Source: Lumbricus terrestris (taxonomy: Eukaryota > Annelida > Clitellata > Crassiclitellata > Lumbricidae). From it: a stretch of DNA of 64,000 nucleotides. The notes beneath the pieces were generated by a model. It did no database searches. It saw nothing but the letters and a program-made list of their open reading frames with translations, and was not told the DNA's origin. Of this stretch, positions 17,216 to 43,565 are shown piece by piece. The position numbers and the translations under genes were made by a program. Position 1 is the stretch's first letter; every line of letters begins with the position of its first letter. Location of the stretch: the NCBI GenBank assembly GCA_949752735.1, contig OX457047.1:3314782-3378781 (forward strand), given 5' to 3'.

Positions 17216-17870
17216 ATAGATCCAATGAAATCCAATGAAATACAAAGAAAGCCAATAAAATTCAAAGAAATCCAATGAAATCCAAAGAAATTCAAAGAAA
17301 TCCAAAGAAATCCAAGGAAATCCAAGGAAATCCAAAGATCTCCAAGGACATCAAAAGAAACCCAATGAAATCCAAAGAAATCCAATGAAATCAAATGAAA
17401 TTCAAAGAAATCCAAAGAAATCCAATAAAATTCAAAGAAATCCAATGAAATTCAAATAAATCTAAGTAAATCCAAAGAAATCTAATGAAACCCAAAGAAA
17501 TCAAAAGAAATCCAATGAAATCCAAAGAAATCCAAAGAAATCCAATAAAATTCAAAGAAATCCAAAGAAATCCAATAAAATTTCAAAGAAATCCAATGAA
17601 ATTCAAATAAATCTAAGTAAATCCAAAGAAATCCAAGGCAATCCAAAGAAATCTAAGTAAATCCAATAAAATCCAATGAAATCCAAAGAAAGCCAAAGAA
17701 ATTCAAAGAAATCTAAGTAAATCCAATAAAATCCAATGAAATCCAAAGAAAGCCAAAGAAATTCAAAGAAATCTAAGTAAATCCAATAAAATCCAATGAA
17801 ATCCAATGAAATCCACAGAAATCCAAGGAAATCCAAGGAAAATTCAAATAAATCAGATGAAATCAAGTGA
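17216..17870 (+). repeat. Tandem 10-bp repeat (ATCCAAAGAA / ATCCAATGAA)
   Basis: About 65 units; higher-order repeats of about 60 bp are visible at 17650-17800 (three copies of TCTAAGTAAATCCAATAAAA plus flanks). Leu/Phe/Trp-rich minus-strand frames (IS-LDFFGF) are artefacts. Confidence 0.93.
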
Positions 17871-29631: not shown

Positions 29632-29635
29632 TTAC

Positions 29636-36498: not shown

Positions 36499-37331
36499 CA
36501 GTGGTTCTCAAACTTCTGCAGGCCACGGACCGGCAATAATTTTTTTCTGAAGCTCGCGGACCGCTATGCGTCGGGAACCGCTAACAAATGTCGAGCGCAA
36601 AAAGCGACCTATAATAATTATTAGGCCTACACCGTGACTATTATAAAGCTGTTTATAATAGGGGCTTTGTTTCAACAATTAATTCATATCCTACCAGCAC
36701 TTTATATATTTCTCAATTTGATTATAATTTAATTGCAAATTCAGAACTTAAACTAAAAGTTTAACTGATTCAGAATTTTCAGAATTTTCTTCGTTCCGAG
36801 TGTTTGAGCGGTAGGCTACGTGCTCTTCTGTAAAAAAAATCTGCCAGATAGGCTTGTTTGTGTTTGCCAATCTTTAAAATGCTTCAAACACATTGTTTAT
36901 ATTTCAAATTTTATATTACGTTTGAAATTAATCTACATCTAAAATGCTTGATCAGCGTTTACTTGATTATCACTCACCATATGGATTAACAGAAATAAGC
37001 AAGAAACCATATAGCGCTGTGACGAATAGAAGCTGACTGCAGTAATAGACATAGTAAAGGCTGACTGCAGTTATAGACGTAGTAAATTCAGAATGAATTT
37101 GGATTTTTGAATTCGCTAACTGGAATAATGTAAAGTGTGCACAAAAAATATATAAAAAAAATTAAAAACTGGGACAGATATTTCGATACATTTCGGACAA
37201 CTATTTGAATAATTTCACAATTTCACATAAAATAGCCTAATTACAATTTATTTTAACTCGGCTCCACGGACCGGCGTTCAGTACTCCGCGGACCGGTGCC
37301 GGTCCGCGGACCACCACTTTGAGAACCACTG
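36499..37331. mobile_element. hAT (Charlie-like) 833-bp element, copy 1, TSD AGCTAGTA
   Basis: CAGTGGTTCTCAAACTTC ... TTTGAGAACCACTG with perfect TSD. The interior is non-coding and AT-rich. Reading along both copies I find no difference from 39378-40210. Confidence 0.93.
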
Positions 37332-38326: not shown

Positions 38327-38552
38327 GTCACAGTCGGTTGGAAAACAAGACGGTGAGGGAGAGGATTGGCCATCCGCCCTCAAATGTCGAGAGCATATAG
38401 AAAAATAAAGTCGTTGGCACTTCGTATACCCATGCATGGCTACATTATAACCTCGCGGCTATATAGCTTAGGCCTTAAGACTCAAAGAATTCCTCTTAAT
38501 TATTCTTTCATTTTGTTATGCTACCGGCCTAGGCCTTCTATATGTATATGCT
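37332..38552. other. Repeat fragments, no gene seen
   Basis: Hairpin at 37461-37501, GGGACTGGCACTGGCAGAG (about 37566-37590) shared with about 14968-14998, (GATT)n at about 38160, (AT)n at 38267-38323. Confidence 0.45.
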
Positions 38553-38735
38553 CAAGGCTTAAAGTGTGGTTGGACGGTCATGGACGGCGTCCATGCACTT
38601 AATTTAAAGTATGAACGCCGTCCTGCCACTTATTGGCCAGCACAGTCTGAAAAGGCGAGTGGCGTCCATGCATGGGCACTTCTTTTACAAAGGTAAGGGC
38701 ATCCAGGCACTTATTTTTCCACACTTTAAGCACTG
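38553..38735. mobile_element. hAT-type MITE (GGCTTAAAGTGTG family)
   Basis: CAAGGCTTAAAGTGTGG ... CACACTTTAAGCACTG. A TATATGCT-like duplication flanks it, offset by two bases. Relative at 48743-48888. Confidence 0.7.
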
Positions 38736-39329
38736 TATATATGCTGCGTTACTTTGAGCTATAAATTAATATCGTACCTTGGTCAAATCAGCCTGTCAAG
38801 ACCGATGAGAGAACTTCCGGCCCCCTATATTATAGACCTATAAAGGCAGAGAGCAGCCACGGGTCCTGAACTATCTTAAGGCTTGAGGCTAAGAGAAAAA
38901 CACTTGTTGGGAAACAAATTTAAGTAATAATAAATGTGCAGGTAAAACCTACGATTTCATATTTATAGGTTATATACAACCTTATTCAGTTGTTTATTTG
39001 AAGCTTAAACCGATTTGTCATTACAGTTTTTTCGATATAATAACACTATGTAACACGATTTTTGTTCCTGGGCAATGAGTGTCATTTCCTGGTTATTTGT
39101 GCCTCAAAAGTAAAGGAAATGGTTGTTATTCTGTTTAAACTTTGCTTTTGTGGACTGGAGAATGGTATTTAAAAGAAAAAACCTATTTCCACAACAAACG
39201 AGCGAATTTGTTTGTTTTTGTTCACGTAAAGGCAGAATAAAACTATATAGGTCACAAGAAAACACAAAATGACTCTAAAGCAACATGCATCAATACTAGA
39301 ATGATAAAAATTGGCCACCCGAAATTTAG

Positions 39330-41620
39330 AACTGCGTAGTTTTTCGAGATTTACAGTCATAATTATATACTGTAAATCAGTGGTTCTCAAACTTCTGCAG
39401 GCCACGGACCGGCAATAATTTTTTTCTGAAGCTCGCGGACCGCTATGCGTCGGGAACCGCTAACAAATGTCGAGCGCAAAAAGCGACCTATAATAATTAT
39501 TAGGCCTACACCGTGACTATTATAAAGCTGTTTATAATAGGGGCTTTGTTTCAACAATTAATTCATATCCTACCAGCACTTTATATATTTCTCAATTTGA
39601 TTATAATTTAATTGCAAATTCAGAACTTAAACTAAAAGTTTAACTGATTCAGAATTTTCAGAATTTTCTTCGTTCCGAGTGTTTGAGCGGTAGGCTACGT
39701 GCTCTTCTGTAAAAAAAATCTGCCAGATAGGCTTGTTTGTGTTTGCCAATCTTTAAAATGCTTCAAACACATTGTTTATATTTCAAATTTTATATTACGT
39801 TTGAAATTAATCTACATCTAAAATGCTTGATCAGCGTTTACTTGATTATCACTCACCATATGGATTAACAGAAATAAGCAAGAAACCATATAGCGCTGTG
39901 ACGAATAGAAGCTGACTGCAGTAATAGACATAGTAAAGGCTGACTGCAGTTATAGACGTAGTAAATTCAGAATGAATTTGGATTTTTGAATTCGCTAACT
40001 GGAATAATGTAAAGTGTGCACAAAAAATATATAAAAAAAATTAAAAACTGGGACAGATATTTCGATACATTTCGGACAACTATTTGAATAATTTCACAAT
40101 TTCACATAAAATAGCCTAATTACAATTTATTTTAACTCGGCTCCACGGACCGGCGTTCAGTACTCCGCGGACCGGTGCCGGTCCGCGGACCACCACTTTG
40201 AGAACCACTGCTGTAAATCACTTTCACGAATCAGCCCCGAGATGTAGTCTCCCATCATGTTCTCATTGTACTGTCCTTGGTAGCAACGTTCAAAGTCTAG
40301 TATATCCTGGTGGAAACGCTCACCTTGCTCCTCCGAGTATGCTCCTATGTTCTCCTTGAAGTTATCGAGGTGAGCATCAAGGATATGAACTTTCAGGGAC
40401 ATCCTGCATTCTTCATTATAATCTCAACCAGCTCTACATAGTTTTCGGCATTGTTATTGCCAGGAAGCCTCCAACCAACGCTACAAAGCTATTCCAAGCC
40501 GCTTTCTCAGTCCTAGAAAGCATCTTGGAGAAATCCTTACACTCCATGATTCTCTTTATCTGTGGACCGACGAATACACCAGCTTTGACCTTTGCCTCAG
40601 ACAGTTTAGGAAAGAAACCTTGAAGGTATTTGAAAGCTTCCGATTCCTTATCCAGAGCCGTGACATACGGTGACAAATTGTTTCATAGAGCCCAATTTAA
40701 TAAGCAGTGGTGGCATCAGCACTTTCCGAGGATCCATCAGTGGCTCCCACTTGACATTTTTGCTACCCACATTGAACTCGGTCCGCTGGGGCCAGTCCCG
40801 CTTGTGGTAGTGCGCCTTTTGTCTCAGCTGTCCCAAAGGCAAAGGTAGCAAGGAAACTTTGTCCGAACCCTTGCAGACCCATCAGGAATGATACCATTTT
40901 GAAGTCCCCTATGACATCCCAGCCGTACTCATCGAACTTCAAGGTGGCTAACAAGGTTTTCACGCTGTTGTAAGCTTAATCCTCTTTGTAGTGTACCGAG
41001 TGAGCCAGAGGAAGAGACAGATACTTGTTCCCATTTGGAGTAGCACGCTTTGAGGGTCCCAGATGAACTGTCAATGAAGAGACGCCACCCGTTCGAGTTG
41101 CAGTCGATTCCAATTTCTTGAAAAAGATCGGTCACGTTGTGACAGAAGCAGAGTCCATCTTGACTGGTAAAAAAGCTTGAAAATGCTTGATGACGCTTCC
41201 TCTGATCTGCGATTTGAACACTGTCATCCAACAGGTCCCACTGCTTTAGTCTAGACGTCAAAAGTTCTGCTTTGGACTTGGTGAGTGATCTCTGATCAAG
41301 TCGTTGAGGTTTTTTTGGTTTGGATAATACGGATTTTTGTCATGAGCCAGAAAATTATAGTCTGGATCTAAAACGTCTTCATCGCTGTCTGACTCTGATA
41401 TACTTTGTTCTTCCGAACGCGACTGATTTCTATCCGGAACAGTGGGTACCGGAAGCTCAGAACTGTGTGGCACAGGGGCCATGGATGATGAAAGGTCGGG
41501 ATATATGATAGGAGTTGCATTCTTTTCAGTCTGACGTTTGGAAGGATCCACCATGCAGAAGTAGCAATTGCTTGGTTGTTCAGTGGGTTCTCGCCAGATT
41601 CTTGGTGTTGCAAACTTCAT
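39330..41620 (-). pseudogene. Uncharacterised transposon protein, multiply frameshifted
   Basis: Minus-strand pieces in different frames read in order: MKFATPRIWREP ... CYFCMVDPSK (41620-41258); LKQWDLLDDS ... WRLFIDSSSGTLKACY (to 40929); a GDFKMVSFLMGLQG and HYHKRDWPQRTEF region; KLSEAKVKAGVFVGPQIKRI; HILDAHLDNFKENIGAYSEE, GERFHQDILDFERCYQGQYN, ending GLIRESDLQ. At least four frameshifts. I believe relatives are annotated as intronless hypothetical proteins in several invertebrates, but cannot confirm this. A Cys pair and conserved Asp in WRLFID and GDF could belong to a transposase-type fold; this is conjecture. The last codons resume beyond the inserted hAT at about 39330-39377. Confidence 0.7.
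39378..40210. mobile_element. hAT (Charlie-like) 833-bp element, copy 2, TSD CTGTAAAT
   Basis: Same length, orientation and sequence as copy 1; perfect TSD at 39370-39377 and 40211-40218. It splits the C-terminal coding part of the pseudogene inside the CACTA-ended element. Confidence 0.93.
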
Positions 41621-41768
41621 GGCTCTCTTTTTCCCTCCATTTTGTGTTGTAGCCTACCATCCTCCGCAAGAAGGTACAGACATAGGCCTAGCACAATGCG
41701 TCAGCTGGATACTTGCAGCCTCTTGATGCCATAGTATGTATCCTGTAGACACAGCATAGGCTGTAGAG

Positions 41769-41803
41769 TGTAGACACAACTCATATTATGAGTTGTGTCT
41801 ACA
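41769..41803. repeat. Perfect 16-bp palindrome with 3-nt loop
   Basis: TGTAGACACAACTCAT, ATT, then the exact complement. It lies between the pseudogene start and the right end of the CACTA-ended element. Confidence 0.93.
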
Positions 41804-42150
41804 GGCCATGCATGCGCCTAGTCAGACGTACAGCTAAACTGAAGTGCATGGAGGGCTCAAGGCATCTTTATTTATATTACTATCTGCAGCTATTTATAGG
41901 TGTGGAAGGGTCTAGCACATTCTAGAATATTCTCGAAAGTTCAAAAGCTGTACAGCTACTCAGAGTTAACACATGAATTTCAATGTACCGAAGAAGCAGT
42001 TGCATTTCAGAATAATCAATATCCTGGCCTGAAAAGCAAAGTCTGTGGGGTATAATGGCCATTTTCTATACTTTTGAGGCAGAAGCAATTAGGAAATAAC
42101 TTTCAATACCCAGGAACAAACAAAAAGTAACATTTTGTTACGTAGTGTAA

Positions 42151-42624
42151 TTTTAAACAATTCTCTGCAATAGGCCTATTATTTGCAAGAAGGCACAACG
42201 TATCAGCTCTGTATACATAATTGACCAACCCGGGCTCCTAAAAGTCTCCGGGCTCACGGGCATTTGCCTCTGACCCATCTCGGTGGCCCTGCATTCTCTC
42301 AAAGTAGCCTAGCGTCACACGAACTGCAAGATGGCTATTTATAAAAGATCAACGATCTTTTTAATCGAAAGATGCTGCTCTCTGTTTCACGTCTCGATTC
42401 CCTTTCTTCTGAAGCGGGGTAGGCCTACTGCAGCAGGAATAACAAACGAGTGTCGGCATCGTATTGGCTGATCTAGAACAGATGCACTAATGCGGAAAGT
42501 TGCATTTCACGCACCAATGACCAATTCCATTTCTTCAGCTGCACGCGGCGCATTGTGCGGATTTAAAACCGAAAAGTATGCGCAGAAAAATGACACAATT
42601 TTGAATTTGGGCGCTGGCAGATAG
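42151..42624. other. No gene seen; degenerate hAT end
   Basis: A CCCGGGCTCC ... GGTGGCCCTG stretch (about 42230-42292) resembles, inverted, the sequence at 26260-26335. Confidence 0.3.

Positions 42625-43182: not shown

Positions 43183-43565
<383 letters not shown>

Follow-up and report, generated by a model that had tools for sequence, protein, structure and literature searches.

Positions 39041 to 42150 of a stretch of Lumbricus terrestris DNA 64,000 nt long (contig OX457047.1; hereafter the window, to whose positions all coordinates refer) hold a DNA transposon with its target-site duplications, a broken transposase gene on the minus strand, and a second element nested within that gene (Table 1). 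With high confidence we assign the transposon as a dead copy of a Chapaev3 element, closest to the Merrow family and carrying a RAG1/Transib-like transposase; membership in Merrow is likely, short of proof, and membership in Chapaev3 is firmer. The kind of element has already been described, and the element is an ordinary one, one more decayed copy.

Table 1. Features of the transposon locus and what each was read from.
Feature	Positions	Strand	Details
Transposon, very probably decayed Chapaev3 (Merrow-like)	39044..42147	-	3,104 bp; ends, inverted repeats, gene alignment
Target-site duplication, left copy, TAA	39041..39043		A before
Target-site duplication, right copy, TAA	42148..42150		T after
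Terminal inverted repeat, 3' side of gene	39044..39164		Starts CACTA; repeat alignments
Terminal inverted repeat, 5' side of gene	42017..42147		TAGTG at end; repeat alignments
Transposase pseudogene	39326..41732	-	ATG 41730-41732, TAA 39326-39328; about 9 frameshifts, 3 in-frame stops
N-terminal Chapa/ZAD-like zinc domain remnant	41636..41732	-	About first 17 residues match family; then gaps equal to 42 family residues
RAG1/Transib-like catalytic core remnant	40211..41285	-	Both D positions, C(2)C, H(4)H and E region readable
Nested, presumed hAT-like non-autonomous element	39378..40210		833 bp; ends CAGTGGTTCTCAAA; longest stop-free stretch 63 codons

The terminal inverted repeats (TIRs) of the element carry the ends 5'-CAC and GTG-3', as CACTA at 39044-39048 and TAGTG at 42143-42147, and the 3-bp duplication has the form TWA between A and T (A-TAA at 39040-39043, TAA-T at 42148-42151). 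An earlier note on this DNA, made from the letters alone, had reported CACTA...TAGTG ends with a TAA duplication, which we likewise see at 39041-39048 and 42143-42150, and its coordinates 39041..42150 are exact, duplication included. Its estimate of about 130 bp of inverted homology also holds: the arms at 39041-39164 and 42017-42140 complement each other at 71% of positions in an ungapped stretch of 124 nt, and a gapped alignment of both arms scores 75 versus at most 59 among 2,000 random arm pairs, which had about the same spacing as the element's and left out draws starting at 38,500-39,300. The random pair scoring 59, near 29635 and 32745, is a CTG/CAG triplet repeat. A motif of the inner TIR, built from both ends, matches just those two ends (mean in 100 shuffles, 0.00). 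Subtracting the nested element, together with a single copy of that insertion's own duplication, leaves 2,263 bp of the transposon. In its 5' part, just upstream of the gene start, there is also a perfect 17-bp inverted repeat whose arms lie 1 bp apart (41769-41803).

In a frameshift-aware alignment to the family protein P0003, 393 of 505 aligned residues of the pseudogene are identical, across nine frameshifts and three stops; the frameshift count depends on the scoring, and one of the nine sits at the junction with the nested element. The minus-strand pseudogene of the earlier note thus stands, and all four of the peptides quoted for it are present in minus-strand frames; overlooked were the nested element (39378-40210), the start at 41732, the stop at 39326-39328 and the loss of most of the N-terminal zinc domain. 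The window copy is inactive, because its frame is broken, its N terminus is deleted, the histidine of its LH motif is replaced by L, and it carries the nested insertion. Searches with six broken pieces of the pseudogene against Pfam and with the window against Rfam gave no match.

Relatives of the transposase are numerous, with 1,486 proteins at E ≤1e-3 (4,133 candidates), and the details that follow are drawn from the 120 matches listed among them. The hosts named there include sturgeon, sucker fish, characins, lamprey, frog, mantis shrimp, shrimp, wasp, moth, tunicate, and sponge, and the proteins are mostly called "uncharacterized" or "hypothetical protein" (one is named as a RING ligase). 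In an alignment of the 72 near-full-length relatives, D263, D317, C339, H385, H493, H498, E512, and E515 are invariant, and C336 is present in 71. We read these residues as C(2)C, LH, and H(4)H plus the DDE triad, since they match the set given for Chapaev transposases in PMC4079192. P0003 has 562 residues, 484 of them counted from M79, and eight of the 120 listed proteins are exactly 484 amino acids long and start with MKF.

These features agree with Chapaev3 (Merrow), described in 2014 in PMC4079192: Chapaev3 elements open with CAC, close with GTG, and duplicate a TWA target flanked by A and T, and Merrow elements of two lampreys (2,451 and 2,455 bp) have exons coding for 78 and 484 amino acids (Table 1 of that paper). 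The window element shares with Merrow (Chapaev3-1_PM and kin) the CAC/GTG ends and the TWA target between A and T, and its relatives share a transposase length of 562 amino acids (which would divide as 78 + 484), the C(2)C, LH, and H(4)H motifs, and the sturgeon and lamprey hosts. It differs in its broken frame, its deleted N-terminal domain, and its length (2,263 bp after subtraction of the nested element versus 2,451-2,455 bp), a shortfall of 188 bp for which the lost N-terminal part plus an intron would roughly account. Garfield, a Chapaev3 element of silkworm with a length of 2,289 bp (Table 1 of PMC4079192), is alike in layout and motifs, whereas its exons code for 78 and 478 amino acids and its hosts are insects. 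The two exons of the described relatives (PMC4079192) also mean that the gene was probably wrongly called intronless in the earlier note. A family called uncharacterised there, and mostly "uncharacterized" in the listed names, with no Pfam or NCBIfam match passing the threshold among the members tested (for NCBIfam, 4 of the 120 listed relatives, no match), fits the Chapaev3 (Merrow) transposase of a described transposon (PMC4079192), and repeat masking ought to cover the corresponding gene models in fish, frogs, crustaceans, insects, tunicates, and sponges.

A tree of 20 relatives places the window protein nearest to P0001 and the sucker fish and sturgeon proteins, with the wasp and moth copies set apart at 100/99; identity to the window protein is 77-78% for sturgeon and P0001 and 58-59% for the wasp relative P0042. 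The sturgeon protein P0002 and the sucker-fish protein P0003 share 95% identity in the alignment, which is in line with the horizontal transfer reported for Merrow in PMC4079192.

The predicted structure of the family fits an RNase-H-like DDE fold of the RAG1/Transib core type over about 350-370 residues, the outcome that a structure search proposed in the earlier note had been meant to look for. Sequence identity in these fold alignments is just 9-15%; a Protein Data Bank (PDB) search with a single family protein found no match, and a PDB profile search up to E 10 returned chance-level matches only and no RAG1 or Transib chain. RAG1 is the recombinase that underlies vertebrate antibodies, and its motifs presumably follow the same order as those of the family (D, D, C(2)C, H, H(4)H, E). 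The family thus resembles Transib and RAG1 in predicted fold and motif order; it differs in its low sequence identity and in the length of its duplication, and no RAG2 partner is seen. Chapaev3 is grouped with Transib and RAG1 in PMC4411706.

Several observations weigh against the assignment to Chapaev3 and Merrow. It draws its force from motifs and sizes, from the hosts, and from the ends and target. The only Foldseek matches at E ≤0.001 are three of those to RAG1/Transib, the window copy has L at the LH histidine, the fork of the window protein in the tree (84/98) falls under the 95/80 support mark, and the intron-like stretch inserted in P0013 and P0027 lies about eight residues upstream of the 78/484 border, a small mismatch in a region that the window copy has lost. 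Neither BLAST nor the motif finds a second copy of the element within the window. In collections poor in animals, no relative appeared among 59 pattern stretches that the protein alignment picked up in viral_contigs or among 24 in the prokaryotic genome_contigs, and the inner TIR pattern had 0 matches in viral_contigs; with so few animals in these collections, such absences say little.

That the gene belongs to a DNA transposon and encodes a transposase, as the earlier note proposed, is borne out by the anatomy of the element and the fit of the protein. The lineage it favored, a true EnSpm/CACTA element of animals whose uncharacterised protein would be a transposase or an accessory factor, was tied to the locus by its ends and duplication length alone, and we regard it as very unlikely. 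CACTA ends and a 3-bp duplication do suit EnSpm/CACTA as well. The family, however, has no match to the CACTA transposase family: the 72 aligned members show no Pfam family above chance, and Transposase_21, which we take to be the Pfam model for CACTA transposases, is not among the matches at E ≤0.1. Furthermore, the window element has one gene, not two, and the proteins carry the motifs of Chapaev transposases and have lengths in line with the Merrow exons (PMC4079192). The earlier note was one branch off, because Chapaev, Mirage, and CACTA share the "CMC" megafamily in PMC4079192.

A host gene, or a processed pseudogene of a cellular family, between ends that resemble CACTA by coincidence is more improbable still. 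Relatives do carry ordinary gene annotations ("uncharacterized protein LOC..."), but the ends, the long inverted repeats, and the duplication all coincide, a DDE/RAG1 fold is predicted for the family, and near-identical proteins occur across distant hosts (95% between sucker fish and sturgeon). An element of the Transib or RAG-like kind can be dismissed almost entirely: Transib target duplications are 5-bp and GC-rich, whereas that of the window element is a 3-bp TAA, and the fold likeness comes with the low identities and the empty profile search given above. Transib transposases, moreover, consist of the core only according to PMC4411706, and the family has an N-terminal zinc domain.

As a Chapaev3 transposon, the element in its live form would have encoded a cut-and-paste transposase in its single gene. 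By analogy with RAG1 and Transib and from the duplication, the RNase-H core of RAG1/Transib type, bearing three acidic residues plus a C(2)C/H(4)H zinc site, would bind the inverted repeats starting with CAC; the DDE site, held by the zinc module, would excise the element; and the excised ends would be joined into A-TWA-T targets, leaving the 3-bp TWA duplication. The ZAD-like N-terminal zinc domain would probably aid pairing of the enzyme, and the element may once have been active in this host. A young hAT-like element would then have jumped into the coding region of the already inserted copy.

The N-terminal zinc domain is the part of the analysis that merits specialist attention, the element itself offering little that is new. 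ZAD is the domain through which insect zinc-finger transcription factors dimerise. In P0003 (residues 14-73) the predicted fold appears ZAD-like, and ZADs are the eight best Foldseek matches, with weak E values (best 0.016). The domain has two C-x2-C pairs of zinc cysteines, with C14 in 35 of 37 sequences and C17, C61, and C64 in all 37. Pfam zf-AD (PF07776), the model for the ZAD of arthropod zinc-finger factors, matches 13 of 18 N termini at E ≤1 (best 3.2e-5) and, with a limit of E ≤0.1, 15 of the 72 full-length proteins, and the first member scores 21.9 bits versus a gathering score of 28. Likeness to ZAD lies in the C-x2-C ... C-x2-C pattern and, as far as predicted, in the fold; the differences are a score under the Pfam cut-off, the absence of C2H2 fingers behind the domain, and a Tyr after the first Cys where ZADs such as that of M1BP have Arg. 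Further points against this reading are that LIM matches 4 of 18 N termini, near the cut-off in one (19.9 versus 22.9 bits), that the THAP domain of the P element is the ninth Foldseek match, and that the profile match to the M1BP ZAD is weak (E 0.1). The N-terminal "Chapa" domain of Chapaev3 is partly common to RAG1, according to PMC4411706.

We offer only tentatively, and on balance doubt, that common descent links the Chapa zinc domain of Chapaev3 with the ZAD found in zinc-finger transcription factors of insects. If it did, the most abundant class of insect transcription factors would carry a dimerisation domain common to, and perhaps captured from, RAG-clade transposons; the suggested role of the transposase N terminus would be pairing of two transposase molecules; and the literature on RAG-clade transposase N termini would be joined to that on the largest insect transcription-factor class. 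No such link appears among the papers listed in the literature search (subscription journals lay outside it), and the one listed paper with both "Chapaev" and "ZAD" matches on an author's surname alone.

The nested element interrupts the transposase gene close to its 3' end and is flanked by an 8-bp duplication, CTGTAAAT, at 39370-39377 and 40211-40218. A second copy lies at 36499-37331, identical at 833 of 833 bases and with an 8-bp duplication of its own, AGCTAGTA. From the ends and duplication length we take both to be hAT-like elements. Two identical copies with different duplications are a sign of recent hAT activity, and the pair fits a non-autonomous element that moved recently, long after its Chapaev3 host element had decayed.

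The window as a whole (1-64000) is rich in microsatellites and short tandem arrays, for example a (CAC)n run spanning 43188-43370 and, at 17220-17854, a 10-bp array.
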